A stretch of 64,000 nt of DNA, from contig JAPOPC010000081.1 in assembly GCA_026713105.1 (NCBI GenBank), forward strand, positions 1-64,000. The letters run 5' to 3'. The notes under the pieces are model-generated. The model was given only the letters and a program-made list of their open reading frames with translations, had not been told where the DNA came from and ran no database searches. This document shows positions 38,655-54,460 of the stretch, in pieces; positions within the stretch are counted from its first letter, which is position 1, and each line of letters starts with the position of its first letter. A program made the translations under genes and the position numbers. This DNA is from Acidimicrobiaceae bacterium. GTDB lineage: Bacteria; Actinomycetota; Acidimicrobiia; Acidimicrobiales; Poriferisodalaceae.

Positions 38655-38683
38655 AAATCATGCGGGCTGCCGAGGTGCGAGGT

Positions 38684-38699
38684 GGGATGCTGCCATCCC
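38684..38699. terminator. Possible hairpin after the phosphorylase gene
   Basis: GGGATG-CTGC-CATCCC, a 6-bp stem with a four-base loop 30 bases after the stop. No U-tract is present, so this is a weak terminator call. Confidence 0.35.
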
Positions 38700-38819
38700 C
38701 TACCCGCAGACTGGCGAGAAATAGAGTCCGGCATGATGCCTGCACTGACGCATTTTGGATCGCTCAGCGGGCTGCACCGACGGTTTTGGGGCGGCTCTCG
38801 CACACCTACGGGGCGGCTG

Positions 38820-41800
38820 ATGCGCACCCGGCCCGCGCTGGGCCGGAGGCTGCGCGGCGGCACGGTGATGTTTGCCGTGCTCGCGCTGATCGCAGCCGTG
38901 CTGGCCCCCACGGCGTCGGCGCAGAGCCGGACCATTGGCACCGTGGTCCTTGCGAACGGCTGGAGTTCTGCCGACTCGGCCGTCGCCTCGGCGCTCGCAG
39001 CCCTCGAGAGCGACGACGACTCCGATGCGGTGGTGCTGTATGCGAGCAGGAGAGCGCTGTCGCAGGGCACCGCAGACTTCATCGAAGATCACCAGCCATC
39101 GGAGGTGATCCTGATCGGCGGCACCGCTGCGCTGTCCAGCGGGGTCGAAGCTGATGTGATCGAGCTGGTCGGCAGCGGATCGGTCAGGCGGGTTGAGGGT
39201 TCGGACCGCTTCGACACGGCTGCGAAGGCGGTTCCCTCCACCGCGACCACGTTTATCGTGGCGAACGGATTCAGCGCCGCCGACACGGGCGTGGCGGCTG
39301 CGTTGGCAGCAACGAGGACCGATGCAGCGGTGCTGCTGGCGACCACCGACAGCCTGACCGAGCCGACCGAACGCATCATTCTCGAGCAGCAACCGCTGGC
39401 GGTCGAATTCGTCGGCGGCACTGCGGTGCTCGCAGAATCGCTCCTCGCTCGCGTCGGCGAGCTGGCGCCGGCGATCCCGGCCTTTCCCCGTCACAGCGGC
39501 ACGTCGCGCACGGCGACGGCGGCTGCTGCTGCGCCAAACAGGTCCACCACGTTGGTGATTGCCAACGGGTGGAGCCCAGCCGACATGGGCGTGGCCGCTG
39601 CCTACGCGGCCATCACCAGCGGTGCCGCGGTCCTCTACTCCCAGACGACCATGCTGACCACGCCCACCGAAGATCGCATCCGGGCGCTGCAGCCGCGCGC
39701 CATCGTGCTGATCGGCGGCAGCGCGGCGCTCGACACCAGCCTGCATGCCCGGCTGCGCGAGATTGCCCCTGCGGCGACGATCCAACGCATCAGCGGGTCA
39801 GACCGCATCGACACCGCGGTGCGCGCCGCTGACGGCGCGCTGACCGACGTCGCAACCGACCCGCCCGCTGCACCCACAGCAGTCAGCGTGGCGTCCCGGA
39901 ACGCCGGTCTGGCAGTGTCGTGGAACCCGCCCACGACCACCTCGGATACGACGAGCAACGACGATCCTGAAGTCACCGGCTATGCCGTCCAGTTTCGGGC
40001 CTGCACGGCCGCCGACACCACCTGCTCGGTCAGCCCGAGCTGGGGCATCTGGAGATCGCACAGCCACACGGGCATCCGGACCACCACGACCATCTCCGGG
40101 CTGACCAACGGCACCAGGTATCAAGTGCAGGTCAGGGCTCGCAACAGCGCCGGCCTCGGGGCGTGGTCGCTGACCGAATCCGGCACGCCGTTGGCGCAGA
40201 CGGCGAAGCCCTCGGTGCCGTCGGGGGTGACCGTGGAGGCGGCGAACCGACTGCTGAAGGTGTCGTGGGCGCAGTCGATTCCCCCGAAGGACGGGACGGT
40301 CGACGGTTACGAAGTGGAGTACCGGACCTGTCCGACGACTTCGACCTGTGGAGGCTGGACCGACCACAGCCATTCGGGCACTGACACCTCCACCACGATC
40401 ACGGGGCTGACTAACGGCATCAATCACGAGGTGCGGGTGCAGGCCACGAGCACGAGGGGCGTCAGCGGCTGGTCACCTGCCAAGTCGGGGACACCTGCGC
40501 AGTTGCCAAGTTTCCTGCTTCTCCCGGATCTGACGCCAGGCGACCGGCAGATCGAGGTGCGATGGAACGAGCCCGCCGACTCCGGGTCGGACATCCGCGA
40601 CTACGACGTGCAGTATCGGGCCTGCACCGCAACCGACGACGACACGACGGTTCTGACCTGCGAGCCTGACGAAGACGCGACGTGGGGCGCCTGGAGAGCG
40701 CGCAGCCATTCGGGTACCGCCCAGGTTTCGACGATCACCGGGCTGACCAACGGCACCACGTACGAAGTGCAGCTACGGGCCAGCAACTCCAACGGCGCAG
40801 GGCCATGGTCGGACGCCGCGACGGCCACGCCGATCTCGGTGCCGGCGAAGCCGAGCACCCCCACCGTGGAGCCCGGCAACACGAAGTTGGTGGTGACCTG
40901 GACGGCTCCGTCGGACAACGGTTCCGACATCATCGGCTACGACGTCGAGCGCTGCACCGGCACGTGTGCCAACGACTCAGATTGGTCTCCCACTCGCGCC
41001 AGGGTCACCACGACAAGGCACGAGTTCACCACTCTGGCCAACGGCACGGCCGTCAAGGTGCGCGTCCGAGCCGTCAATGCCGTGGGCGACGGCCCGTGGT
41101 CTTCGATCAGGACCGGCACGCCCAAGGCCGTGCCTGATGCTCCCGCCGCACCGGGACTGACGGGCGGTGACCGCAAGATCATCGTTACGTGGGGTGCGCC
41201 AAGCCCCAACGGCACGACGATCAGCAGCTACGAGATCCAGTACCGGGCGTGCACGGCGACACCGCGAGACTGCAGCTCGAACCCACGGTGGGGGAGCTGG
41301 CGCTCGAGGAGCCATTCGGACCTCAGCGACCTCGAGTCGACGATCCCCAGCCTCACGAATGCCACGGAGTACGAGGTGCGGGTGCGGGCTCGCATCTCTG
41401 GTGGCTCGGGGCCATTTTCGCTAGCCGCAGAAGCAACGCCGCTCGGCAAGCCGTCGAAGACGCCGACACCCTCGGTGACCGCGGGCGACGGGCTGCTGAT
41501 GCTGACCTGGACACCGCCGGCGGACAACGGTTCAGACATCACCGGCTACACGGTGCAGCGCTGCGAGAGCACGGCCGATTGCACGGTCGACGGCGACTGG
41601 TTTGAAGTCAGCCCATCGGGAACCCCGACACCGGACGAGGTCACCGGCGAGGTCACCCACACGTTGAGCAGGTTGACCAATGGCACGACTTACCGGGTGC
41701 GCGTCCTCGCCACGAACGGTGTTGGCGCCGGCCCGTGGTCTTCGACGGTGTCGGGCACACCCTCGGTGCGGCCCGACGCTCCCACCGGTCTGACCATGAA

Positions 41801-43691
41801 CGTGGCCGACCGGCAGGTCGGTCTGTTGTGGAATGCGGCCAATGACAAGGGCGTGACGATCACCGGCTACGACGTCGAGTACCGGGCCTGTGAGGCGACC
41901 GGCTCCGACGAGACGGTGCTGACGTGCGCCTCCGACCCGACGTGGGGCGACTGGAAGACGCACCCTCACTCGGGCGTCGGCATCACCACGACGATTACCA
42001 GGCTGACCAATGGCACCAGGTACGAAGCACGCGTGCGGGCCCGCAACACCAACGGCCCCGGTCCGTGGGCGGGACCGACAGCGCCATCATCTGGCATCCC
42101 GCTGGCAGCCGCGTCGACGCCGACTGGTCTCACCGTGGAAGCCGCGTATCAGCGGCTGAGCGTGTCGTGGAATGCGTCGGCTCCGCACGGTTCGACCATC
42201 ACCGGCTACGTCGTGGAGCACCGGGAGTGTGAGACAACGCCAACGACCTGCACGTTGAGTCCGCGATGGGGTGAATGGATGGCGCACAGCAATAGCGGCA
42301 CCACCACAGCAAGAATCATCTCCGGCCTGACCAATGGCACCAAGTACCAAGTGCGGGTGCAGGCCACGAGCAGCATCAGCGGCGATAACCGAGTCAGCGG
42401 CTGGTCGCAGATCAAGTCCGCGACACCGGCAGCGGTGCCTGAACCTCCCAGCACGCCGACGCCGACGCCCGACGATCGCCAGATCAGCATTATGTGGTCT
42501 GAGCCGGACAATCGCGGTGCGGCCATCACCGACTACGACGTCGAGTACCGGGCCTGCACCGCGACGCCGAGAGACTGCAGCGGCCCCGACCCGGCATGGG
42601 GGGCCTGGCTGTCGCATGGCCATTCGGGCGCCAGCCGATCCACGATCATCACCAGCTTGACCAATGGCACCAGGTATCAGGTGCGGGTGCGGGCTACCAA
42701 CGCCAACGGCATCGGGCCGTGGCTGACCAACCCAGCGGAATCGACGCCGGTAGGCGCACCGGCGATGCCCGCGACGCCGAGGGTGACCACGGGCGACGGC
42801 CAGTTGACCGTGGATTGGATCGAACCGCGATCCAACGGATCGGACATCGACGGCTACGACGTGGAGTACCGGGCCTGCGAGGCGACCAACTCCGACGAGT
42901 CGGTGCTGACCTGCGCATCCAACCCCGCATGGGGTGGCTGGGGATCGGCCGGCGTCTCGATCAGCGGCACCATGGCGACGATCGCCGACTTGACCAATGG
43001 CACGGCGCACCAAGTGCAGGTCCGTGCCAAATCCGGCAGCCTCATCGGCCCGTGGTCGTCGCCGGTCACCGAAATGCCGAGGGGCGCGCCCGACGCGCCC
43101 AAGATGACGCTCACCTCGGGGAACCGGAAGCTGATCGTGTCGTGGCCGACGCCCAATGCGAAGGGGTCGACGATCACGAGCTTCACCGTGCGGTACTGCG
43201 ACACTGCCGATGCCTCGAAGAATTGCAGCGACTACGCCGACTGGGTGACTCGGACTGGGATCAGTGCGCGAGCGACGAGCTACACCATTCAAAGTCTCAG
43301 CAACGGCGACGAGTACCGCGTGGAAATGCGTACCAACAGCAGCAGCCATGGCGCCAGCGAATGGCCGAGTTACGAAACTGCGACGCCTGGAGCGCCGAAT
43401 GCGCCCTCAACGCCTCGACTGACGGCCGGCAACACAGAGATCTCCGTGACGTGGTTCGCACCCGCCAAGAATCACTCCGACATATTCGACTATGAGGTCG
43501 AGCACTGCCTGACCACGCTTGACTGCACGGTGGACACCAATTGGACAGACACCAGCCATTCGGGAGTCACGACTTCATTCGTCATTACCGGGTTGGACAA
43601 CGACAAGAGCTACAGAGTGCGAGTCCGGGCCCAGAACAACCAAGGGTGGGGTGCGTGGTCGGTGATGGCTTCCGCCACGCCTACGACGTGA
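38820..43691 (+). CDS. Secreted protein with three CWB2 repeats and twelve FN3 domains
   Basis: 1,623 residues from ATG 38820. That start gives a clean Sec signal (RRLRGG, hydrophobic core to ~30, cleavage after TASA at 34); upstream ATGs at 38733/38736 would put 29 extra residues ahead of it. Residues ~37-330 hold three cell-wall-binding-repeat-2 units, each with an ANGWS-x-AD motif and a V-x-[LF]-[IV]-GG-[ST]-AAL or GGTAVL core. From ~345 to the end are twelve FN3 domains, marked by LTNGT-x-Y-x-V-x-VRA repeats. Many contain a disulphide-like pair (EYRACTAT...C). No LPXTG or C-terminal membrane anchor is visible. Likely an S-layer-like or adhesive surface protein. Confidence 0.88.
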   Translation: MRTRPALGRRLRGGTVMFAVLALIAAVLAPTASAQSRTIGTVVLANGWSSADSAVASALAALESDDDSDAVVLYASRRALSQGTADFIEDHQPSEVILIGGTAALSSGVEADVIELVGSGSVRRVEGSDRFDTAAKAVPSTATTFIVANGFSAADTGVAAALAATRTDAAVLLATTDSLTEPTERIILEQQPLAVEFVGGTAVLAESLLARVGELAPAIPAFPRHSGTSRTATAAAAAPNRSTTLVIANGWSPADMGVAAAYAAITSGAAVLYSQTTMLTTPTEDRIRALQPRAIVLIGGSAALDTSLHARLREIAPAATIQRISGSDRIDTAVRAADGALTDVATDPPAAPTAVSVASRNAGLAVSWNPPTTTSDTTSNDDPEVTGYAVQFRACTAADTTCSVSPSWGIWRSHSHTGIRTTTTISGLTNGTRYQVQVRARNSAGLGAWSLTESGTPLAQTAKPSVPSGVTVEAANRLLKVSWAQSIPPKDGTVDGYEVEYRTCPTTSTCGGWTDHSHSGTDTSTTITGLTNGINHEVRVQATSTRGVSGWSPAKSGTPAQLPSFLLLPDLTPGDRQIEVRWNEPADSGSDIRDYDVQYRACTATDDDTTVLTCEPDEDATWGAWRARSHSGTAQVSTITGLTNGTTYEVQLRASNSNGAGPWSDAATATPISVPAKPSTPTVEPGNTKLVVTWTAPSDNGSDIIGYDVERCTGTCANDSDWSPTRARVTTTRHEFTTLANGTAVKVRVRAVNAVGDGPWSSIRTGTPKAVPDAPAAPGLTGGDRKIIVTWGAPSPNGTTISSYEIQYRACTATPRDCSSNPRWGSWRSRSHSDLSDLESTIPSLTNATEYEVRVRARISGGSGPFSLAAEATPLGKPSKTPTPSVTAGDGLLMLTWTPPADNGSDITGYTVQRCESTADCTVDGDWFEVSPSGTPTPDEVTGEVTHTLSRLTNGTTYRVRVLATNGVGAGPWSSTVSGTPSVRPDAPTGLTMNVADRQVGLLWNAANDKGVTITGYDVEYRACEATGSDETVLTCASDPTWGDWKTHPHSGVGITTTITRLTNGTRYEARVRARNTNGPGPWAGPTAPSSGIPLAAASTPTGLTVEAAYQRLSVSWNASAPHGSTITGYVVEHRECETTPTTCTLSPRWGEWMAHSNSGTTTARIISGLTNGTKYQVRVQATSSISGDNRVSGWSQIKSATPAAVPEPPSTPTPTPDDRQISIMWSEPDNRGAAITDYDVEYRACTATPRDCSGPDPAWGAWLSHGHSGASRSTIITSLTNGTRYQVRVRATNANGIGPWLTNPAESTPVGAPAMPATPRVTTGDGQLTVDWIEPRSNGSDIDGYDVEYRACEATNSDESVLTCASNPAWGGWGSAGVSISGTMATIADLTNGTAHQVQVRAKSGSLIGPWSSPVTEMPRGAPDAPKMTLTSGNRKLIVSWPTPNAKGSTITSFTVRYCDTADASKNCSDYADWVTRTGISARATSYTIQSLSNGDEYRVEMRTNSSSHGASEWPSYETATPGAPNAPSTPRLTAGNTEISVTWFAPAKNHSDIFDYEVEHCLTTLDCTVDTNWTDTSHSGVTTSFVITGLDNDKSYRVRVRAQNNQGWGAWSVMASATPTT

Positions 43692-43843
43692 CCTAGCGAG
43701 CCGCGCCGACACACACCAGCGTCTGCGAGCCGCTCATTTGCCGGACCGCCCTCGTGCCTCCGCGTCGGCTCGCGACAGCGGTGTGGCACTATGTGTGAAC
43801 AGATATTGACTCACAGTCATCTCTCGACAGTGCGGGCGCGCTC
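43692..43843. promoter_or_regulatory. Intergenic region upstream of the ArsR-type regulator
   Basis: 152 bases between the FN3 gene and the ArsR-type gene. It contains TGTGA-N12-TCACA at 43794-43815, a 5-bp inverted repeat around ACAGATATTGAC that could be a regulator site. No other gene is seen. Confidence 0.45.
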
Positions 43844-44206
43844 ATGACCGATCCCACCAGCGATGCCACTTTCTCTGCTCTGGCCGACCAGACGCGTCGG
43901 GCCATCTTGGGCTTGATCGGGGAGCACGGCGAGCTCACGGTGGGGGAGATCGCCTCACGATTCGACGGAGTCGGCCGGACGGCAGTCTCCTCGCACCTGC
44001 GCATCCTGCGTCTCGCCGGTTTGATCACCGAACGCCGAGACGGCCGCTACCGGCACTACTCGCTCACCTCGACGCCAGCCGACACGGTCGTGGCCTTCCT
44101 CGCTTCGGTGTACCAGAACTCGCTCGACCAGCTCTCCGCGGCGATGACCGAGGCGGTGGCGGCAGCCGGCAACACGGTCCAGCAAGACGACGAGCTGAGC
44201 GCTTAG
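43844..44206 (+). CDS. ArsR-family winged-helix transcriptional regulator
   Basis: 120 residues. FSALADQTRRAILGLIGEHG, ELTVGEIASRF, GRTAVSSHLRILRLAGLITE and RRDGRYRHYSL are the ArsR/SmtB DNA-binding fold. The metal-binding ELCVCDL motif is absent, so it is not a metal sensor. It precedes by ten bases an SRPBCC-ligand-binding fusion. ArsR-SRPBCC pairs are common, and here the ligand domain probably informs the repressor. Likely targets are its own promoter and the transporter promoter at 45,677-45,725. Confidence 0.88.
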   Translation: MTDPTSDATFSALADQTRRAILGLIGEHGELTVGEIASRFDGVGRTAVSSHLRILRLAGLITERRDGRYRHYSLTSTPADTVVAFLASVYQNSLDQLSAAMTEAVAAAGNTVQQDDELSA

Positions 44207-44216
44207 CCGCTCTGGC

Positions 44217-45656
44217 ATGGCTGAGCTCGTTCTCCGCAGCGAGGCCCGCCTCGAGGCGGGCCCGAGCGAGCTGTTCGCGCTATTCGGCTCGGGCGACCCG
44301 TCGCTGGGCTGGCTGTTCGGCTCGGAAGCCGACGCCCTTCGACCCGGTGCTCTCGTGCGACTCACGCTCCCGATCGGCGAGGGGGCACGTGCGCCGGGAA
44401 CGGCGAGAGTCCAGCGCTGCATGCCCGGGCGCCGGATCGATCTTGTGCACGAGACTCCATGGGCAGGCCGTGTGGTGTGTCAACTCGATGCGCTCCCCGA
44501 CGGCGGCACTCGCCTTCGCATCCGCGTCACCATCGACGATCGGGAACTCGTGCGACTCGGCGCCGACTTCGGACTCCATTCCTGGGCCGATGTGGAGGAC
44601 TGGGAGGTACCCCTCGGCCTGCTGACGTCGCTGTCGGGCAGCGCCGGAATCCTGGGGCGCTCCACGGTGAACTGCGCGCAGCTCGCCGTCGACGAGATCA
44701 ACGCCGACGGCGGAATGCTGGGTCGTGACGTACGGCTCGTCGTGGCAGACGATGCCACCGATCCCGGCATCGGCGTGATCGCGATGAGCCGCCTCTGCGG
44801 GGTGCCGGGCCTGGCGGCGGTCGTCGGCATGCACTCGTCTGCGACCTATGCCGCCACCTCGCCGATGGCCGTCGCCAACGCGATCCCCTACCTCTACACG
44901 CCGACCAGCGAAGCAGCCGCCCCCCATCCGCTGCTGGTTCGGTTCGGCGAAAGGCCCCTCGACCAGCTCCACCGGGCCCTGCCGCTGATGGCCGAGGCAA
45001 CCGGCGGTACCCGCTGGTTCCTCACCGGGAACGACTACTCGTGGCCCCGGGCGATCGGGGCTTCCGCACGCGAGGTGATCGAGCGCATGGGCGGCACGGT
45101 CACCGGCGAGGGCTACGTTCCACTGGGCACCCAGGAATTTGCACCGGTGATTGCCGCTATTGGTGAACGCGGTACCGACCACATCGTCTCGAGCTTCGTC
45201 GGGCAGGACCACGTCCGCTTCGAGAGCGAATTCTCGGCATCGGGACTGCGCGGCACGACCCGCACGTTCGCGCCGCTCATGGACGACGCCGTCGTCGAGC
45301 ACTTGGGCCCGTCGGGGGTGGGCATCTGGAATGCCCTCGGGTACTTCGCTGCGATGGACACCGCCGAGAACCATGAGTTCCTGCGGCGCTATGAAGCGCG
45401 CTTCGGTCGGTGCTCGCCACCTGTTTCCGCGGCAGCAGAAGGGGTGTACGAAGCCATCCACACGTGGGCCAGCGCATGCCGCTCCGGCGGCGGCATCGAG
45501 CCGAGCGCTTTCCTCGGAGGGCTTCGCACGTCTGGCTTCCGTGGCCCGAGGCGCTGCGGCCGCGGCGGAACGCTGGAGTCGTTGCTGCTGGGGGAGGCGA
45601 CGCCGTCCGGCATCAAGGTGCTGGACGAACTTCCCGTGGCAGGCCCTTCTCCTTGA
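44217..45656 (+). CDS. SRPBCC domain fused to a cytoplasmic AmiC/FmdD-like ligand-binding domain
   Basis: 479 residues, no signal peptide or membrane helix. Residues ~1-132 resemble an SRPBCC/AHSA1-type domain (LRSEARLEAGPSELFALFG, ARVQRCMPGRRIDLVHETPW, GGTRLRIRVTI). Residues ~136-470 are a type I periplasmic-binding fold: VPLGLLTSLSGSAGILGRST, AVDEINADGGMLGRDVRLVV, ADDATDPGIG, ATGGTRWFLTGNDYSWPR and GYVPLGTQEFAPV. The last three match the downstream lipoprotein almost word for word, so the two are paralogues. AmiC of Pseudomonas is a cytoplasmic amide sensor of this fold. I infer a soluble ligand sensor acting with the ArsR protein. Confidence 0.8.
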   Translation: MAELVLRSEARLEAGPSELFALFGSGDPSLGWLFGSEADALRPGALVRLTLPIGEGARAPGTARVQRCMPGRRIDLVHETPWAGRVVCQLDALPDGGTRLRIRVTIDDRELVRLGADFGLHSWADVEDWEVPLGLLTSLSGSAGILGRSTVNCAQLAVDEINADGGMLGRDVRLVVADDATDPGIGVIAMSRLCGVPGLAAVVGMHSSATYAATSPMAVANAIPYLYTPTSEAAAPHPLLVRFGERPLDQLHRALPLMAEATGGTRWFLTGNDYSWPRAIGASAREVIERMGGTVTGEGYVPLGTQEFAPVIAAIGERGTDHIVSSFVGQDHVRFESEFSASGLRGTTRTFAPLMDDAVVEHLGPSGVGIWNALGYFAAMDTAENHEFLRRYEARFGRCSPPVSAAAEGVYEAIHTWASACRSGGGIEPSAFLGGLRTSGFRGPRRCGRGGTLESLLLGEATPSGIKVLDELPVAGPSP

Positions 45657-45676
45657 CCGCGCTTGACCCGGACCCT

Positions 45677-45698
45677 GTTGACAAGACAATATGTCAAC
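45677..45698. promoter_or_regulatory. Candidate operator/promoter of the amide transporter operon
   Basis: GTTGACA and TGTCAAC form a 7-bp perfect inverted repeat with an 8-base AT-rich spacer (AGACAATA), the geometry of an ArsR-type operator. The left arm contains a consensus TTGACA -35 box. The start of the binding-protein gene is 27 bases beyond. Repressor binding here would block the transporter promoter. Confidence 0.6.
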
Positions 45699-45725
45699 AA
45701 CTACTCACATATAGGGGGCCGGGAC

Positions 45726-47081
45726 ATGGGACAGCGACGGAGCCGACTCACGCGGTCATCGGGGCGCACGGCGGTCATGTTGATTGCGCTGATCTCGATG
45801 ATCGCTGCCGCTTGCGGTACGAGCGACGACGATCCTGCCGAGGCCGAGCCGGCGAGCGCCACGGCCGCGCCCGCTGCCGACGACGGCCCCGCCAGCACAG
45901 AGCCGGCGACCGAACCCGAACCCGACTCGGCGCCGGCGACGACCGAAGCGGCTGACGCGGCGGAGCCCGATGAGCCGGCGGCACCGTCGGGGGAGCCCGT
46001 GCGCATCGGGATCCTGTTCTCCAACAGCGGGCCGGCGGGCATCTTCGGCCAGCCCACCGCCAACATCGCAGAGTTCATCGAAGAGGACATCAACGCCGCC
46101 GGCGGCATCAACGGTCGCCCTGTCGAGACCTATCTCGCCGACGACGCCACCGATCCTGCGATCGGCCGCCAAGCGATGGAGCAGCTCATCGAATCGGACG
46201 GTGTCGACGTGGTGCTCGGCACCCATTCCAGCGCCACGCGCGAGGCCGCCAAGCCGCTCGCGGAGGATGCCGGCGTGCTGTACATCTATGCGGCGCTGTA
46301 CGAGGGCGGTGAGTGCTCGGCGGTGATGTTCAACACCGGTGAAGTGCCGAGCCAACAGCTCGCACCGGTCATCCCGTGGATGATGGACGAGACCGGCGGC
46401 AGCAAGTGGTTCCTGCTCGGCAACGACTACGTGTGGCCCCGCCGCAGCTTCGAGCTCGCACGCCAGTACATCGAAGCCGCAGGCGGCGAGGTTGTGGGCG
46501 AGGAGTACGTGCCGCTCGGAACGCAGGATTTCTCCTCGGTTGCGCAGCAGATCGCGGGTTCCGGCGCCGAGTTGATCTTCCCGGCCCTCGTGGGCGGCGA
46601 TGCGATCGCGTTCGAGACCCAAGCGGTCGACTTCGGCATCGGCCAGGACGCCATCGGCCGCCTGGCGAACATTTATGAGGAGAACGTCCTCGGAGTGATG
46701 GGGCCGTCGGTCACGGCTGGCATGCGGGTCACGCTGGGCTACTTCAAAGAGGTCGACAACGCTGCGAACAGCGAGTTCGTCAGCCGCTACTACGAGCGGT
46801 TCGGCGCCGATGCACCGCCGCACATGACCTTCAGCTCGCACATCTACGACGCTGCCCTGCTCTACGCAGCAGCGGCGAATGCGGCGGGCACCACCGAGAC
46901 AGCGGCCGTCGCCGCGGCGCTCGAAGGGCTGACGCTGTCGACCCCGACCGGAGACATCGCGATCACCGGCAGCCGCCACCTGTCCCAGCCGATCTACGTG
47001 GCGGAGATCCAATCCGATGGCTCACAGCTGATCGTGCAGTCGTTCCCGTCGGTTGAGCCAGACGAGACCTGCACTCCCTAG
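45726..47081 (+). CDS. Amide/urea-type ABC transporter substrate-binding lipoprotein
   Basis: 451 residues from ATG 45726, with GGGGG ahead of it. Signal peptide with lipobox IAAAC (C30), then a low-complexity Ala/Glu/Pro linker to ~95. The Peripla_BP_5-type domain reads VRIGILFSNSGPAGIFGQPT, YLADDATDPAIG, GTHSSATREAA, ETGGSKWFLLGNDYVWPR and EYVPLGTQDFSSV. This group includes FmdD (short-chain amides), UrtA (urea) and AmiC. It is followed by the permease and ATPase genes and an amidase, so an amide ligand is likely. Confidence 0.87.
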   Translation: MGQRRSRLTRSSGRTAVMLIALISMIAAACGTSDDDPAEAEPASATAAPAADDGPASTEPATEPEPDSAPATTEAADAAEPDEPAAPSGEPVRIGILFSNSGPAGIFGQPTANIAEFIEEDINAAGGINGRPVETYLADDATDPAIGRQAMEQLIESDGVDVVLGTHSSATREAAKPLAEDAGVLYIYAALYEGGECSAVMFNTGEVPSQQLAPVIPWMMDETGGSKWFLLGNDYVWPRRSFELARQYIEAAGGEVVGEEYVPLGTQDFSSVAQQIAGSGAELIFPALVGGDAIAFETQAVDFGIGQDAIGRLANIYEENVLGVMGPSVTAGMRVTLGYFKEVDNAANSEFVSRYYERFGADAPPHMTFSSHIYDAALLYAAAANAAGTTETAAVAAALEGLTLSTPTGDIAITGSRHLSQPIYVAEIQSDGSQLIVQSFPSVEPDETCTP

Positions 47082-47205
47082 AAGATGCGCGGATAGGTGA
47101 ACCTTGCGGCTGTCGCACCAGTTGTTTCCCGCTCTTGTTCGCTGTCGCTCACGGGCCGCTCGGGCCACGGCTTTGCCTATCGGCTCAGCCTCTTAGCGCA
47201 ATCCG
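47082..47205. other. Gap between the binding-protein and permease genes
   Basis: 124 bases with no frame of note. The direction and function of the flanking genes suggest one transcript, so the gap may hold an attenuating structure that lowers permease expression. No strong hairpin is clear by eye. Confidence 0.4.
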
Positions 47206-48060
47206 ATGGACGCGCTGACACTCGAGCTTCTTAACGGTCTGAGCACCTTCGCGACGCTTGGGGTCGTCGCGCTTGGACTGGGGATCGTTTTCGGGCTGAT
47301 GGGGATTATCAACCTCGCGCACGGCGAGTTCGTGATGATCGGTGCGTATGTCTCCTACGTGGTGCATGCGAACGGCTTCAGCCACTGGCTCTCGGTGCCG
47401 CTGGCCGCCGTGGTCCTGTTCGTGCTGGGCGGGGCCATCGAGCTCACGCTGATCCGTCGCATTCACCGCCAGCCGGAAGTCACGATCCTGGCCACCTTCG
47501 GGCTGTCGGTCTGCCTTCGGCAGGTGGCCGAACTGGTCTTCACCAAGGACTTCCGAGGTGTGCCCAATCCCGTGCCCGGCGCGACGCGGGCCTTCGGTGT
47601 CCTTTTCCCGACCTACCGCTACGTGCTGATCGGCATTGCCGTCGCAGTCGTGGTGGCGACGCTGCTGGCATTCACGAAGTCGCGTTTCGGCTTGACCGTC
47701 CGGGCAATCGTCGCCGACCGCGATCTCGCGGAGGCATCCGGCATCCGCACCGGCATTGCCAACCTGTGTGCCTTCGGCATCGGCGCGGCCACTGCAGGAA
47801 TCGCCGGCGCGCTGGTGGCCCCGCTCGGAGCGATCGAGCCCCAGGCGGGTCTCGCGTACTTGCCGGGGGCGTTCCTGGTGGTGATCGTGGGCGGGTTCAA
47901 CAAGCTCTGGGGCGTCGTCGTCGGAGCGCTCATCGTTGCCGGCGTTCAGACCGGCGTCATCCACTTCTACGACGCCGTGTGGGCGCAGATCGCGTCACTG
48001 GGTCTCGCCGTGGCAGTGCTGCAGTTCCGGCGAGTGTCTGTCGAGGGAGCCTCCGCATGA
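47206..48060 (+). CDS. ABC transporter permease, LivH/UrtB-like
   Basis: 284 residues with eight helices. LGLGIVFGLMGIINLAHGEF, VMIGAYVSYVVHANG, TILATFGLSVCLRQ, FGLTVRAIVADRDLAEASGI and AIEPQAGLAYLPGAFLVVIV are typical of the first permease of urea/amide/branched-chain systems. Its stop overlaps the start of the fused permease-ATPase gene (ATGA at 48057). Forms the channel with that protein's membrane half. Confidence 0.9.
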   Translation: MDALTLELLNGLSTFATLGVVALGLGIVFGLMGIINLAHGEFVMIGAYVSYVVHANGFSHWLSVPLAAVVLFVLGGAIELTLIRRIHRQPEVTILATFGLSVCLRQVAELVFTKDFRGVPNPVPGATRAFGVLFPTYRYVLIGIAVAVVVATLLAFTKSRFGLTVRAIVADRDLAEASGIRTGIANLCAFGIGAATAGIAGALVAPLGAIEPQAGLAYLPGAFLVVIVGGFNKLWGVVVGALIVAGVQTGVIHFYDAVWAQIASLGLAVAVLQFRRVSVEGASA

Positions 48061-49802
48061 GACGCGCACTCGCCGCCGGTGCGCTCGCTGCGGTCGCGGT
48101 CGTTGCGATGAGTGTCGCGCTGGGCGGCTTCCGAGCCGGTCAGCTCTCGCTGTTTCTGGTGTTCGCTGCCCTCGCGGTCAGCCTCGACTTCGTCTGGGGA
48201 TACGCGGGCATCCTCTCGTTGGGCCAGCTGCTGCCCTTCGGCATTGCCGCGTACGCGTCGGCCAAGATCACCCTTGCCGCGCCGTCGCTCAGCGTCGGGG
48301 CGCTCATCGTGGCGGCGCTTATCGGGGCCGCTGTCGCCGCGGGCATCGGCGTGGCCATGCTCCGGCGGCGGCCCACGGCGGTGGTCGTCGGGCTCCTGAC
48401 GCTGGTGCTGTCGCTCACCGCGGAGCAGATCGCCGAACAGTGGCGCGACATCACCGGCGGCTTCAACGGCCTGACCGGCGTGCCTCGCATCGGCGCGTTC
48501 GGAACCGAGCTCAGCGACACCGCCGGGGACATCGTGATCTCGGTGCTCGCACTGGCAGCGATCACTGTCGTCGGCGTCGGGGTCAGCCGCCCGATCGGCG
48601 CCGTGCTGATCGGCATCCGGTCCAACGAGCGCCGCATGGAGGCACTGGGCTACGACACCGTCCGCTGCAAGATCTGGGCGTTCACCGTCGGCGGCGCTGT
48701 CGCGGGATTTGCCGGTGCGCTCTACGTGCACCGCACGGGCTTCGTGTCGCCTCAGATCTTCGGGTTCACGCTCGCGACCAGCGTGGTGCTGTGGACCCTC
48801 GTCGGGGGTCGAGGCACGATCGTGGGGCCAGTTGTCGGCGCATTGGCGATCAACTTCGCTTCGGCGACGCTCGCCGATGTCTGGCTGCAGTACTGGACGC
48901 TCGCGACCGGCGTGATCTTCGTGGTCGTCGTGGTCGTGATGCCCGACGGCGTCGTCCCGAGCCTGCAACGCCTCGCCGGGCGCTCCGCGGGTCGCCGCCG
49001 CCAGCCCACGTTGCTCCCCGCCGACGCAGAGCCCTCGGGTGCCCCTCCACACGACGGGGCGATCTTCGAGGCCATCGACGTTCGCAAGAGCTTCGGGTTC
49101 TTTCGCCTGATCGACGGTCTCACACTCCGGATGGACGAGCCGGAGCTGCGGTGCCTGGTCGGTCCCAACGGTGCCGGCAAGTCGACGCTGCTCGACATCC
49201 TGTGCGGTCAGCAGGGATGCCAGGCAGGCACCGTTCGCATCTTCGGCCAGGAGTGCACGGGCAAGCCTTCCTGGGAGTTCGCGAGGAACGGCGTGAGCCG
49301 CAAGTTCCAGTCGCCGCAGCTCGTCGACGACCTCTCCGTCGCGACCAACGTCGCCATCGCCGCGTGGGGAGCTGATTCGTCGCCGTGGGGCCTCGCGCGA
49401 AGGAGCTGGAACGCTCCCATCCCGCCGGCGGCGTCGGAGATCCTGGAACGAACCGGGCTCGGGGAGCGGCTCGGGGCCCGAGCAGGGGACCTGTCCCATG
49501 GCGACAAGCAGTGGCTTGAAGTCGCAATGGCGTTGGCGGGCAATTGCCGGCTCCTGCTGCTGGACGAACCCACCGCGGGCATGACGGTCGCGGAGAGCCT
49601 GGAAGCGGCAGCGCTGCTGCGCGATCTGCACGCTCGCCACGGCCTCCCCATCGTGATTGTCGAGCACGACATGACGTTCATACGGGCTGTTGCAGACCGG
49701 GTCACGGTGCTGGCGCGTGGCGCGGTGCTGGCCGACGGCGACGTCGCCGAGGTGGAGGCCAACCCGCAGGTGCGCGCCATCTACTCGGGGGTGGACACCT
49801 GA
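48057..49802 (+). CDS. Fused ABC permease-ATPase, LivM-LivG type
   Basis: 581 residues from ATG 48057. Residues ~1-310 are a LivM/UrtC-like permease (VWGYAGILSLGQLLPFGIAA, IGIRSNERRMEALGYDTVRC, VAGFAGALYVHRTGFVSPQI). Residues ~335-581 are the LivG/UrtD ATPase: Walker A GPNGAGKST near 370, signature LSHGDKQWLEVAMAL, Walker B LLLLDEPTAG near 500 and the switch IVEHDM. Such fusions are known for some amide and urea systems but most genomes keep two genes. The stop touches the LivF start (TGATG). Confidence 0.9.
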   Translation: MRRALAAGALAAVAVVAMSVALGGFRAGQLSLFLVFAALAVSLDFVWGYAGILSLGQLLPFGIAAYASAKITLAAPSLSVGALIVAALIGAAVAAGIGVAMLRRRPTAVVVGLLTLVLSLTAEQIAEQWRDITGGFNGLTGVPRIGAFGTELSDTAGDIVISVLALAAITVVGVGVSRPIGAVLIGIRSNERRMEALGYDTVRCKIWAFTVGGAVAGFAGALYVHRTGFVSPQIFGFTLATSVVLWTLVGGRGTIVGPVVGALAINFASATLADVWLQYWTLATGVIFVVVVVVMPDGVVPSLQRLAGRSAGRRRQPTLLPADAEPSGAPPHDGAIFEAIDVRKSFGFFRLIDGLTLRMDEPELRCLVGPNGAGKSTLLDILCGQQGCQAGTVRIFGQECTGKPSWEFARNGVSRKFQSPQLVDDLSVATNVAIAAWGADSSPWGLARRSWNAPIPPAASEILERTGLGERLGARAGDLSHGDKQWLEVAMALAGNCRLLLLDEPTAGMTVAESLEAAALLRDLHARHGLPIVIVEHDMTFIRAVADRVTVLARGAVLADGDVAEVEANPQVRAIYSGVDT

Positions 49803-50482
49803 TGCGCCTTGAAGCGCATGAGCTGCGCTCGGGTCACGGCGGTGTGCCGGTCCTGCACGGCGTCAGCTTCTGCGTGGGCGGCGGCGAGATCGTGGCGCTG
49901 GTGGGCCGCAACGGTGCTGGCAAGACAACGCTGGTCAAAACGGTCGTGGGACTCCTGCGGGCGACTGGCGGGCAACTGCTGCTCGACGGCGAGCAGATCA
50001 CCCGCCATCCGCCGTCCCGCCGCATTCGAGCGGGCCTTCGGGCCGCCTTTCAGGAACGCCCGCTGTTTAGTCAGCTCTCGGTGGCTGACAATTTGCGTCT
50101 GAGCGGGCACCCCGTGCCCGAGCACGTCCTGGCCGTGTTCGGCGACTCGTTGGCGGGGCGTTCAGCCCAGCGGGCGGGCACCCTGTCGGGCGGCGAGCAG
50201 AAAATGCTCGCGGCGGCCTCGGCGCTCGCGTCGACTGCGTCCATCTTGTTGATGGACGAGCCGACCGAGGGTCTGCAGCCCTCAAATGTCGAAGTGCTCG
50301 GCGACCGTCTCGACGCGGCGCGGAACTCGGGTCGCGGGATACTGCTGGTCGAGCAGCACCTGGCGCTCGCGACGCGACTTGCCGACCGCTTCATCGTGCT
50401 CTCCAAGGGCGAGATCGTCGACAGCGGTTCAGCAGGAGAACGCGATCTTGCCGACCGGCTGAGCCGGCACCTCGCGATATGA
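49802..50482 (+). CDS. ABC transporter ATP-binding protein, LivF/UrtE-like
   Basis: 226 residues. Walker A GRNGAGKTT (K41), signature TLSGGEQKMLAAASAL, Walker B ILLMDEPTEGLQPSN and switch LLVEQHLALA. The start overlaps the fused gene's stop by one base. It would pair with the ATPase half of the fusion to power uptake. A little shorter than typical LivF (~235). Confidence 0.9.
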   Translation: MRLEAHELRSGHGGVPVLHGVSFCVGGGEIVALVGRNGAGKTTLVKTVVGLLRATGGQLLLDGEQITRHPPSRRIRAGLRAAFQERPLFSQLSVADNLRLSGHPVPEHVLAVFGDSLAGRSAQRAGTLSGGEQKMLAAASALASTASILLMDEPTEGLQPSNVEVLGDRLDAARNSGRGILLVEQHLALATRLADRFIVLSKGEIVDSGSAGERDLADRLSRHLAI

Positions 50483-50509
50483 GAAAAAACAGCACAAGGG
50501 GAAACAGCT

Positions 50510-51874
50510 ATGACAGAACTGACTCAGATGAGCCTCGCCGAAGCGGCGCGAGCAGTGCGGGCACGAGATGTCACCGCCGTCGAGCTGCTCGACGCCTGCC
50601 TGGCAAGGATCGAACAGACCGAGCCCGCCATCAGCGCGTTCGCGTCCACCCAAGTGGCTGCAGCACAGACCGCTGCTGCCGAGCTCGACGCGGGGGAGAT
50701 CACGGGCCCGCTGCACGGTGTCCCCATCGCCCTCAAGGACCTCTTCTTCACCGAGGGAGTGCCGGCCGAGGCGAACTGCGAGGCCCTGAGGGGATTCGTC
50801 CCCACCCACGACGCGACGGTCGTCGGGCGCCTGCGCGCGGCCGGGGCGGTCATCGTGGGCAAGACGAACACCCATGAGCTGGCTTTCGGTGTCTCCTGCC
50901 CGGCCTCGCGCAATCCATGGGACACGCGGCGCTCGACGGGGGGCTCCTCAGGAGGCAGTGCTGCAGCCTTGGCGGCGCGGCAGGTGTTCGGGGCGCTCGG
51001 CACCGACACGGGCGGATCGGTCCGCATCCCGTCGAATTGCTGCGGCACGACCGGCATCAAGACCACGCGTGGTGCGGTGCCGCGTGACGGGGTCCACCTG
51101 ATCTCGTGGACCTACGACACGGTCGGCCCGATGGCGCGCAGTGCCGAAGACTGCCGGATCCTGCTCGAGGTCATTTCCGGCGCGTCGCGGGCCGATCCGT
51201 ATTCGGGCCCCGAGCCGTTGAGCGACGTGCGGGCTCCGGGCGAGCTCACGCTGGGCGTGCCCACCGACGGGTTCTTCGACGGCATCGACACCGATCCGCA
51301 GGTGCGCGCGGTGATGGACGCAGCGATCGAGGTAGTGCGCACCGTCGTGGGAAACGTGGCTCCAGCAGACGTGCCCAACAGCGCTGAGCATGCCGAAATC
51401 GGCTTGGCGATCGTCGTGTCAGAAGCGGCTGCGCTGCTCGAGGGTTTGCGCAACGAGCACGACGACCTGATCGGGCCCGAAGTGCGGGAGATCCTGGGTG
51501 CCGGCGCCGAGATTCCGGCAACGGCGCTCGCGTCGGCCCTGGCGCAGCGGGTGTCGTTCGAACGGGCCTGTCTCGATGTCTTCGACGATCAGGACATCGA
51601 CCTGATCATCGCCCCGGTGAACCCCAACCAGGTGGTCCCCCACGGGGCTGGCGAGCTGGGCGGGGTGCCGCTTATTCCGGCGACGACGCAGTTCACATTT
51701 CCTGTCAACGGTGCCGGGCTCCCCGCGATCGCCCTGCCGGGCGGGTTCGCCGCCGACGGCCTGCCCATTGGTTTCCAGCTGATCGGCCGGCCGTTCGCCG
51801 AGCGGACGCTCGCCGCCGTCGGCGAGGCATTCCAGCGAGAGACCGACCATCACCTGCGCGTTCCGCAGTTGTGA
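50510..51874 (+). CDS. Amidase-signature family hydrolase
   Basis: 454 residues from ATG 50510. The triad is read as K76 (GVPIALKDLFF), S146 (STGGSSGGSAAAL) and S170 (GTDTGGSVRIP). It lies 27 bases after the LivF gene with ACAAGGGGAAA ahead, so it belongs to the transporter operon and probably hydrolyses the imported amide to ammonia and a carboxylate in the cytoplasm. GatA-like but without GatB/GatC neighbours, hence not a tRNA amidotransferase. Confidence 0.9.
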   Translation: MTELTQMSLAEAARAVRARDVTAVELLDACLARIEQTEPAISAFASTQVAAAQTAAAELDAGEITGPLHGVPIALKDLFFTEGVPAEANCEALRGFVPTHDATVVGRLRAAGAVIVGKTNTHELAFGVSCPASRNPWDTRRSTGGSSGGSAAALAARQVFGALGTDTGGSVRIPSNCCGTTGIKTTRGAVPRDGVHLISWTYDTVGPMARSAEDCRILLEVISGASRADPYSGPEPLSDVRAPGELTLGVPTDGFFDGIDTDPQVRAVMDAAIEVVRTVVGNVAPADVPNSAEHAEIGLAIVVSEAAALLEGLRNEHDDLIGPEVREILGAGAEIPATALASALAQRVSFERACLDVFDDQDIDLIIAPVNPNQVVPHGAGELGGVPLIPATTQFTFPVNGAGLPAIALPGGFAADGLPIGFQLIGRPFAERTLAAVGEAFQRETDHHLRVPQL

Positions 51875-51958: not shown

Positions 51959-52879
51959 ATGCGCAGCTGGGACTCGATGGACGACTTCGAGGCGTTTCTC
52001 GATGACGGCGGCTTGGTGGAGCCCGGCGACGCCATGCCCGATACGTACCGCGAGGCGGTCTTCCGGTTCATCGAATTGCATGCCAACAGCGAGTACATGG
52101 GAGGGCTGACCGAGCGTGACTGGATCGCGAAGGCGCCGGGCCTCGCCAACAAGCTGACGGCGCTGGCCAAGACCCAGGACGAGATCGGTCACGCGCACCT
52201 GCTGTACATGGTCGCTGCAGACATGGGCATCAAGACCCGTGACGAGATGACCGTCGATCTGCTCGCCGGCCGCACCACCTTCCACAACGTGTTCCACTAC
52301 CGGGCCTACACCTGGGGCGATCAGATCGCGATCGCGTATCTAGTCGATGCTGCGGCGCTCGCCAGCCAGCAGGCCGTGTTCAAGAACTGCAGCTACGGGC
52401 CCTACAAGCGCATCCTGCGGCGCATCATCGCCGAGGAGGGCTTCCACATGCGCAACGGCGAGGAGCTGTTGCTGAAAATGGCCAAGGGCACCTCCCAGCA
52501 GCACGACTTGATGCAGGAAGGCATCGACCGGTGGTGGTGGCCGTCGGTGCAGCTGTTCGGTCCTGACACCCGGCCCGATGACGTGCTGCTGCGCTGGCAC
52601 ATCAAGTCTGAGCGCAACGAGGTGCTACGCGACCGGTTCGTGCAGAAGATGGTGCCTCAGCTGACTGCAGCGGGATTCACGATTCCCGACCCTGACCTGC
52701 GCCAAGATCCTGATACCGGACGCTGGATCAGCGGCAAGATCGACTGGGATGCCCTCAAGGCAGCGATCGCAGGCCGGGGGCCCGACAGCGAACGACGTTT
52801 GCGCGATGCGCGCAACGCCTGGGACGGCGCGGCATGGGTTCGCACCGCGCTCGACGAAGCAGCGGCGGTGCCTGCGTGA
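51959..52879 (+). CDS. paaA: 1,2-phenylacetyl-CoA epoxidase, catalytic subunit PaaA
   Basis: 306 residues. The di-iron ferritin-like fold shows MGGLTERDWIAKAPGLANKL, KTQDEIGHAHLLYMVAADMG, FHYRAYTWGDQIAIAYLVDA and IIAEEGFHMRNGEE, in the order of PaaA; the iron ligands lie in LTERD, DEIGH and EEGFH. PaaA epoxidises phenylacetyl-CoA with PaaC, PaaB and the reductase PaaE. Its stop overlaps the start of paaD (GTGA). AGCAGGGAGCAG precedes the ATG. Confidence 0.95.
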   Translation: MRSWDSMDDFEAFLDDGGLVEPGDAMPDTYREAVFRFIELHANSEYMGGLTERDWIAKAPGLANKLTALAKTQDEIGHAHLLYMVAADMGIKTRDEMTVDLLAGRTTFHNVFHYRAYTWGDQIAIAYLVDAAALASQQAVFKNCSYGPYKRILRRIIAEEGFHMRNGEELLLKMAKGTSQQHDLMQEGIDRWWWPSVQLFGPDTRPDDVLLRWHIKSERNEVLRDRFVQKMVPQLTAAGFTIPDPDLRQDPDTGRWISGKIDWDALKAAIAGRGPDSERRLRDARNAWDGAAWVRTALDEAAAVPA

Positions 52880-53421
52880 GTGACGCAGCCACAACGACCA
52901 CGGCGACGACGAGCCCAGCCCCCATGGAGGCGGCGGTCTTGGAGGCAGCGGTTTTCGACGCGGTGTCGTCGGTGTGCGATCCCGAGTACCCCGACGTGAC
53001 GATCGCCGAGCTGGGCATTCTGGAGAGCGTCTCGATGGCCGACAACGGCTCGGTTGTGCGCATCGAGCTGGTGCCGACCATGCTCGGCTGCCCAGCCCTC
53101 GATGTGATCCGGCGCGACGTTGCTGCTGCGGCGCAGTCGGCGTGCGTAGGCGCCAAGGCTCGAATCGAGGTGGTGTTCGTGGCCGACCCGGTGTGGACGC
53201 CCGACCGAATCGCGCCGTCGGCCGTGGCTTTCATGGCCCGCGAATACTCCGTGGCAGTCCGCAGCGCCCTGACCGATGCGACGTGCCCCATTTGCGGCAA
53301 CGCGGCACTGGAGCACCGCTCTGATTTCGGGCCGACACCGTGTCGCAGCGTGGAGTGGTGCCCGAACTGTCGCAACCCGATCGAGGTGGTCGGCAGGGTC
53401 GACATCGCGGTGTCGGCGTGA
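52876..53421 (+). CDS. paaD: Phenylacetate pathway Fe-S maturation protein PaaD
   Basis: 181 residues from GTG 52876. VFDAVSSVCDPEYPDVTIAE and ELVPTMLGCPALDVIRRDV are the MIP18/DUF59 (SufT-like) fold with its conserved DPE and catalytic-type Cys. A C-terminal zinc ribbon follows (CPICGN, then WCPNCRNP). PaaD is thought to mature Fe-S centres of the epoxidase system. Located between paaA and paaB instead of after paaC. The first 15 residues are a Thr/Ala-rich tail. Confidence 0.92.
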   Translation: MSDAATTTTATTSPAPMEAAVLEAAVFDAVSSVCDPEYPDVTIAELGILESVSMADNGSVVRIELVPTMLGCPALDVIRRDVAAAAQSACVGAKARIEVVFVADPVWTPDRIAPSAVAFMAREYSVAVRSALTDATCPICGNAALEHRSDFGPTPCRSVEWCPNCRNPIEVVGRVDIAVSA

Positions 53422-53690
53422 AGACCTACGAGGTGTTCCTCAAGCGCCCCGGCAAGGATCCGTTCACTCACGTCGGAGCACTCGAAGCGCCCGACGACGA
53501 ACTGGCGCTCAGCTTCGCTCGCGACTGCTACGCACGGCGATCCGAGGGGGAGCAGATGTGGGTGGTGGCGCGCTCTGAGCTGCTGGTCGCCGATTCCGTC
53601 GAGCTGGAAATGGCTGATCGGTCCCACCGCCACAATGACGGTGCGCTGCTGCGGGATCTGCGCAAGGCAGGAGACTCGCCCGCCTCATGA
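53418..53690 (+). CDS. paaB: Phenylacetyl-CoA epoxidase subunit PaaB
   Basis: 90 residues from GTG 53418, coupled by GTGA on its left and ATGA on its right. KTYEVFLKRPGKDPFTHVGA, ALSFARDCYARRSEGEQMWV and VVARSEL are typical of PaaB, which bridges PaaAC heterodimers. Normal length. Confidence 0.93.
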   Translation: MKTYEVFLKRPGKDPFTHVGALEAPDDELALSFARDCYARRSEGEQMWVVARSELLVADSVELEMADRSHRHNDGALLRDLRKAGDSPAS

Positions 53691-54460
53691 GCGACGTGAA
53701 CAGACCAGACCCAAGCGACGCGCGCCAAGTGGTGCTCGCGCTTGCCGACGACGAGCTGTGCGTCGGCCAGAACCTCGCGTGGTGGATTGCTGTCGGTCCG
53801 TTCCTCGAGGAGGACTTGGCGCTGACCTCCATCAGCCAGGACGAGTTGGGCCACGCTCGGGCGCTGTACGGCCTGCTCGGAGACGACATCGACGCGTTGG
53901 CATACGGCCGCCAGCCCCATGAGTACCGCAGCGCCCATCTCACCGAGCTGCCGTGCCGCGACTGGGGCGAGACCTTGGTCCGGCACTTCCTGTACGACAC
54001 TGCCGAGAGCATCCGATGGCAGGCGTTCGCAGATTCGTCGTGGGAAGCCCTCGGCGCAGTTGCGCGCCGAGCCCTGGCCGAGGAACGGTCGCACTTGCGT
54101 CACGCCTCTGGGCTGCTCTCGCGGCTGCTGCGCACTGAGTCGGGCTGTTCCCAACTGCTCCCGCTGTTCGATCAGTTCGCGCCAATGGCGTGCGAGCTGT
54201 TTGATGTGCCGTCGGGATGTTCTTCGGATGACCTCGTTGCAGGCGGCGTGATGTCCAGTCCCTTGGGCGATCAGCGCGCCGAGTGGCAGGCAACGGTTGA
54301 CGAGGCTCTCGCTCAGGTCGGGTACCAGCCCAAGTGGCCCGACCACAAAGAGCTGGGTTCACCGGCGAGCGGTCGAGACGGCCAGCGCTCGCCTCACTTT
54401 GCGACACTGCACGCCGAGATGGTCGAGGTGCTCACGATCGATCCTTCCGCGGTCTGGTAG
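53687..54460 (+). CDS. paaC: Phenylacetyl-CoA epoxidase structural subunit PaaC
   Basis: 257 residues. LADDELCVGQNLAWWIAVGP, FLEEDLALTSISQDELGHAR, LLGDDIDALAYGR, RDWGETLVRHFLYDTAE and AEERSHLRHASGLLSRLL fit PaaC, the ferritin-like partner that stabilises PaaA but lacks the metal site. Last gene of the A-D-B-C run. No paaE or paaK follows; the next gene is an unrelated molybdenum hydroxylase. Confidence 0.93.
   Translation: MSDVNRPDPSDARQVVLALADDELCVGQNLAWWIAVGPFLEEDLALTSISQDELGHARALYGLLGDDIDALAYGRQPHEYRSAHLTELPCRDWGETLVRHFLYDTAESIRWQAFADSSWEALGAVARRALAEERSHLRHASGLLSRLLRTESGCSQLLPLFDQFAPMACELFDVPSGCSSDDLVAGGVMSSPLGDQRAEWQATVDEALAQVGYQPKWPDHKELGSPASGRDGQRSPHFATLHAEMVEVLTIDPSAVW

Follow-up and report, generated by a model that had tools for sequence, protein, structure and literature searches.

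In a 64,000-nucleotide stretch of DNA from Acidimicrobiaceae bacterium (contig JAPOPC010000081.1; hereafter the window), we describe a conserved system in which an ArsR-family repressor and a cytoplasmic protein, combining an SRPBCC domain with a ligand-binding domain of the AmiC/UrtA type, probably switch on amide uptake and breakdown. The system is real and conserved, its role is probably regulatory, and its two proteins are most likely regulators of the NhlD-NhlC type known from Rhodococcus nitrile-hydratase clusters, an assignment based on gene order and domain architecture, with relatives from strains BX2 and BAA-870 standing in for strain J1. The combination of SRPBCC and binding domains is thus not unique to the window, whose branch most likely couples the regulator pair to an ABC importer in place of nitrile hydratase.

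The genes of the locus, all of them borne out at the positions given in an initial annotation made from the sequence, are compiled in Table 1 together with the candidate regulatory elements. Conservation of this neighborhood in related genomes was observed in five of ten congeners, which share the same operon with a fusion protein about 80% identical and a substrate-binding protein (SBP) 84–86% identical to those of the window. The SBP scores 247 bits against a UrtA cutoff of 492.75, and the amidase carries Lys76, a GGSSGG motif and a DTGGS region, as located by motif positions in its sequence.

Table 1. Features of the regulator and amide-uptake locus (window coordinates)
Feature	Position	Strand	Basis
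Putative -10 element CACTAT of arsR-fusion promoter	43787..43792	+	Sequence; also in several congeners; putative assignment
Candidate operator 1, TGTGAACA-GA-TATTGACT (TGTSA-N8-TSACA, 1 mismatch), after likely arsR -10	43794..43811	+	Motif search
ArsR-family repressor, 120 aa, no cysteine, NhlD-like	43844..44206	+	Pfam HTH_20, NCBIfam HTH_metalloreg, Cys count
Cytoplasmic SRPBCC - type I periplasmic-binding-fold fusion, 479 aa, NhlC-like putative amide sensor	44217..45656	+	AF2 model; 54 loci
SRPBCC (helix-grip) domain, aa 1-128 of fusion	44217..44600	+	Relatives' Pfam matches, predicted fold
AmiC/UrtA-type ligand-binding domain, aa 129-479 of fusion	44601..45653	+	Sequence and structure comparison
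Putative transport-operon promoter: TTGACC (45663-45668), 18 bp, CAATAT (45687-45692)	45663..45692	+	Sequence; putative
Candidate operator 2, TGTCA-ACAACTAC-TCACA, adjoining/overlapping transport-operon -10	45692..45709	+	Motif search
Substrate-binding lipoprotein (SBP), UrtA/FmdD-like, of ABC importer	45726..47081 (start ATG 45726)	+	Peripla_BP_6 317 bits; hydrophobic leader ending in Cys
LivH/UrtB-like permease	47206..48060	+	BPD_transp_2 124.6 bits
LivM-LivG-like permease-ATPase fusion	48057..49802	+	BPD_transp_2 and ABC_tran
LivF/UrtE-like ATPase	49799..50482	+	Profile matches
Amidase-signature-family amidase	50510..51874	+	Amidase 327.6 bits

Several observations concern the surroundings of these genes. 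The gene directly upstream of arsR (38682-43691) encodes a 1669-aa protein in which cell-wall-binding (CWB2) repeats are combined with about 12 fibronectin type III domains. The phenylacetyl-CoA epoxidase genes paaA, paaD, paaB and paaC (51959-54460; PaaA and PaaC exceed their NCBIfam cutoffs) follow the amidase gene, which paaA adjoins in congeners too, hinting at arylacetamides as substrates. An interspersed repeat fills the interval between the SBP and permease genes (47082-47205); 42 matches to it are listed for the genome, and its ends are imperfect 18-nt inverted repeats (47080-47097 / 47176-47193). The corresponding gap is merely ~30 bp in one congener (L035), and in two other loci (L039 and L041) it contains a strong GC-rich hairpin (arms GAGCCGGTGCGGGCGC ... 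GCGCCCGCACCGGCTC in L039), which perhaps limits transcription beyond the SBP gene.

The initial annotation had read the second gene as a cytoplasmic fusion of an SRPBCC domain with a periplasmic-binding fold, and structure prediction, matches of relatives and the leaderless start all agree with this reading. The whole protein was modelled by AlphaFold2 with pLDDT 91.4 and pTM 0.91, and the N-terminal domain alone with pLDDT 89.4, its secondary structure running strand, two helices, five strands, helix. The predicted fold of this half is a helix-grip fold, all matches listed (Foldseek, VIA) are of the SRPBCC type, and AHSA1, START and Bet v 1 structures are its solved neighbors (Foldseek E ~1e-6, VIA Z up to 10.5). 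SRPBCC folds usually end in a long helix, but the final helix of this domain is short (aa 108-117). P81, W82 and G84 of the segment P81-W82-x-G84 are invariant in the fusion family. Pfam detected the binding-protein domain alone in the window fusion, its N-terminal half being unmatched at E up to 10; among 35 fusion relatives, Polyketide_cyc2 (PF10604) was matched by 10 (best 1.2e-5) and AHSA1 (PF08327) by four. Taken from the model and from these matches, an SRPBCC/Bet v 1/AHSA1 fold of the N-terminal half is supported. A profile-profile comparison (hhalign) with ArsR-linked AHSA1 proteins gave a match too weak to establish descent from such a partner (34% probability, 42 columns). A missed signal peptide was not found in the fusion: its maximum 15-residue Kyte-Doolittle mean is 0.92 vs. 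2.65 in the SBP, and a protein with no such leader is not a transporter component. The fusion also gave no HTH match in Pfam, unlike single-chain regulators of the LacI/GalR type that join an HTH to a periplasmic-binding fold.

Structure comparison of the C-terminal domain gave Z ~44 for both periplasmic urea-binding proteins and AmiC, and the likeness to AmiC that had been proposed extends over 344 residues (Z 44.4). Residues S208, Y274 and W276 of the fusion align with AmiC S85, Y150 and Y152, pocket residues of AmiC, and all three are invariant in 35 relatives. The fusion shares 41% identity over 284 aa with the neighboring SBP, and the three motifs noted at the outset as common to both proteins are indeed present in each. 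The further suggestion that the ligand pocket had been copied from the transporter fared differently. In a tree of 65 binding domains, including 26 fusions and locus SBPs, the fusions are separated from all other domains by a single branch (SH-aLRT 99) and form a clade that spans Acidimicrobiia to Rhodococcus, apart from the locus SBPs, which make up another group. A topology forcing the Acidimicrobiia fusions to group with their SBPs was rejected (p-AU 0.003), and therefore the fusion was not copied from its own transporter within the Acidimicrobiia lineage. A constraint holding all fusions with the Acidimicrobiia locus SBPs gave p 0.215 in the same test, a value compatible with a deeper ancestry that fusions and locus SBPs may share.

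The partner of the fusion carries a winged-helix ArsR domain, with Pfam and NCBIfam matches above cutoffs (HTH_20 44.1 bits, cutoff 27; HTH_5 34.7, cutoff 22; HTH_metalloreg 74.9, cutoff 55). Within the ArsR/SmtB family, a thiolate metal-binding motif is a feature of thiol-based metal sensors only; this motif is absent from the window ArsR, which has zero cysteines (0–2 across 52 relatives) and is therefore not a thiol-based metal sensor. Among HTH_20 and AHSA1/Polyketide_cyc2 matches, no further adjacent ArsR-SRPBCC pairs were seen in the same genome.

A search with the N-terminal domain followed by a scan of genome contigs (~50 fusions), with plasmids adding more, yielded 54 usable loci from Acidimicrobiia, Pseudonocardia, Nonomuraea, Streptomyces, Rhodococcus, Gordonia and others, nearly all actinobacterial. 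The proposed pairing with ArsR holds almost throughout: an ArsR gene lies directly upstream on the same strand in 52/54 loci, with gaps of -19 to 178 bp and often overlapping. An amidase is nearby in 51 loci, nitrile hydratase is adjacent in 32, and aldoxime dehydratase occurs in eight. A LivH-type permease is present in 10/54 loci, nearly all of the Acidimicrobiia group. The N-terminal domain is confined to such fusions in 296 sampled genomes of the phylum, of which two are positive, so that the family appears sporadic. The second fusion to be retrieved with the N-terminal domain, from another family of the phylum, again has ArsR upstream and lies beside an AraC gene and a gene that, judging by sequence, is a putative aldoxime dehydratase. 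In R. rhodochrous BAA-870 and BX2, the plasmid-borne ArsR and fusion genes are followed by nthB, nthA and genes for an accessory protein, a cobalt transporter and an amidase, in this order. Two records stand somewhat apart. A contig titled Acidobacteria (L044) carries a fusion and an SBP that closely resemble their Acidimicrobiia counterparts and is possibly a mis-binned or misnamed MAG contig, and a Thioclava plasmid (L121 879-3801) presents a parallel pairing with a repressor of a different family, in that an AmiC-like gene and an amidase gene come after a MarR gene.

A conserved 18-bp dyad, TGTSA-N8-TSACA, was detected in the arsR promoter as well as in the promoter of the gene that follows the fusion. 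In the window and congeners it takes the form TGTGAACA-N2-TATTGACT after the likely arsR -10 and TGTCAACA-N2-TACTCACA at the transport-operon -10, with an additional TGTTGACA half-site at 45676-45683; TTGACC and CAATAT recur in relatives with 17-bp spacing, and the coordinate 43794 at which the initial annotation began the operon is the first base of the candidate arsR operator. Within 130 bp upstream of arsR the dyad (1 mismatch) occurs in 22/51 loci vs. 26/5903 background tiles (0.44%), counts that derive from related loci, in some of which the motif was first seen, and that are not independent events. A spacer of 8 bp is almost the only one enriched (21/50 arsR upstream regions and 26/52 regions after the fusion gene, vs. 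0–6 for other spacers). Upstream of arsR the dyad is unrecognizable in over half of the loci, and the loose 18-bp pattern with one mismatch occurs in the window no more often than expected by chance (4 vs. 5.0 expected), so that its weight comes from position and conservation. Dyad sites recur in distant genera, and in one locus (L040), where the transport operon has the opposite orientation to arsR, both promoters retain their sites. Only one perfect match to the extended motif occurs in the 3.96-Mb genome, namely at the SBP promoter, and the reversed control was unmatched.

The window cluster lacks nitrile hydratase genes; those of the same genome are on another contig (L155 609-2425, G000 contig 44) and comprise an alpha subunit with a CTLCSC motif and beta-like and accessory-like frames. 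No operator was found within this 3.5-kb locus at up to two mismatches, and nitrile hydratase as a second ArsR target was rejected for lack of such a site.

The computational analysis thus established the domain architecture, the conserved operators at both promoters, the near-constant gene pairing and the conserved pocket positions. In the model that we consider rather probable, ArsR would bind the dyad adjoining or overlapping the -10 of its own promoter and of the transporter-amidase promoter and would repress both promoters. The fusion would serve as a cytoplasmic receptor whose AmiC/UrtA-type domain binds amide already inside the cell, and its SRPBCC domain would dock on ArsR and relay the amide signal, lifting repression so that importer and amidase are made. 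Repression by ArsR is argued from the two candidate operators at or beside -10 regions, and a co-sensor role of the fusion from the constancy of a partner with an amide-receptor fold. We infer that the SRPBCC half contacts ArsR, that the molecule bound is an amide and that the effect of the fusion is to relieve repression, not to assist it. For the contact, this half is the natural candidate since an ArsR gene adjoins 23/30 AHSA1 genes sampled in the phylum, although the domain could bind a ligand of its own instead. Overall, the amide-responsive switch anticipated in the initial annotation is supported as likely.

The direction of the effect might be the reverse. Amide-free AmiC holds AmiR, and amide releases AmiR. 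By analogy, a ligand-free fusion could help ArsR to repress, with amide binding breaking the complex; AmiC is known to regulate negatively and to form a complex with its partner (titles of 1pea and 1qo0), and a stable complex would fit the tight coupling of the arsR and fusion genes. However, ArsR proteins generally bind DNA with no partner, and the genetics reported for the Rhodococcus system, with nhlC positive and nhlD negative, favor relief of repression, so we regard a co-repressor as fairly unlikely. The nature of the ligand offers a second choice. By sequence, the binding domain is nearer to UrtA (about 1e-50 to 1e-48) than to AmiC (2e-38), and being at least as close to a urea-binding protein it may sense urea or another small molecule (e.g., an amino acid or an aromatic acid), with the amidase incidental or inducer-making, a reading for which the phenylacetyl-CoA epoxidase genes after the amidase also speak; yet the constant neighbor is an amidase, often accompanied by nitrile hydratase, and we judge a non-amide ligand unlikely. 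That the fusion instead carries amides or nitriles in the cytoplasm or assists an enzyme, with ArsR acting alone, is very improbable: SRPBCC domains elsewhere do bind hydrophobic ligands and some are enzymes, but the pairing with ArsR persists although the surrounding enzymes vary, and the fusion resembles a receptor, AmiC.

Relief of ArsR repression by an amide-bound fusion can be placed among known systems. The nhlD and nhlC genes of the R. rhodochrous J1 cluster for low-molecular-mass nitrile hydratase (L-NHase) were reportedly characterized by Komeda, Kobayashi and Shimizu in 1996 (J Biol Chem 271:15796) as a negative and a positive regulator, respectively, of L-NHase formation. NhlD is ArsR-like, NhlC is AmiC-like and the J1 cluster is amide-induced, and the gene order of the BAA-870 and BX2 plasmids matches that of the J1 cluster. 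By extension from these gene-order relatives, NhlC is assumed to carry an SRPBCC domain as well; we know of no description of an SRPBCC half in NhlC. The initial statement that no described system was known to combine these parts is accordingly not supported, in view of the Rhodococcus nitrile-hydratase relatives. As with NhlD/NhlC, an ArsR-type gene adjoins an AmiC-like gene in an amidase cluster; unlike in the J1 cluster, an ABC importer takes the place of nitrile hydratase in the window operon, and the amidase is a distant one (32–33% between Acidimicrobiia relatives and the Rhodococcus AmdA-type enzyme). The window system is therefore most likely not without precedent but a rewired form of the NhlD-NhlC type.

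Other comparisons are more partial. With AmiC/AmiR of Pseudomonas aeruginosa the fusion shares a leaderless cytoplasmic type I receptor fold and an amidase operon, but it has an extra SRPBCC domain and its partner is a DNA-binding ArsR rather than an RNA-binding ANTAR antiterminator; the adjacent gene is ArsR, not an ANTAR-domain AmiR, in the window and in 52/54 loci. The UrtA urea-binding and FmdD-type amide SBPs belong to the same binding-domain family and are nearest by sequence, but they differ from the fusion, which carries SRPBCC in a chain devoid of a signal peptide. As in ArsR-AHSA1 gene pairs, an ArsR gene lies directly beside an SRPBCC gene; here, in contrast, the SRPBCC domain is joined to a ligand-binding domain, and its sequence likeness to AHSA1 is weak.

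ArsR-SRPBCC gene pairs are common in Actinomycetota. Since the partner in the fusion system comes with a ligand-binding domain and a candidate operator, the three-part switch is directly testable. With somewhat less than even confidence, we propose that docking on ArsR is the dedicated task of the SRPBCC domain and that the fusion may reveal the job of these pairs in general, i.e., a ligand-sensing partner that removes ArsR from DNA. As the same regulators lie beside nitrile-hydratase genes of biotechnological strains, the operator and sensor described here could help to explain and tune amide induction.
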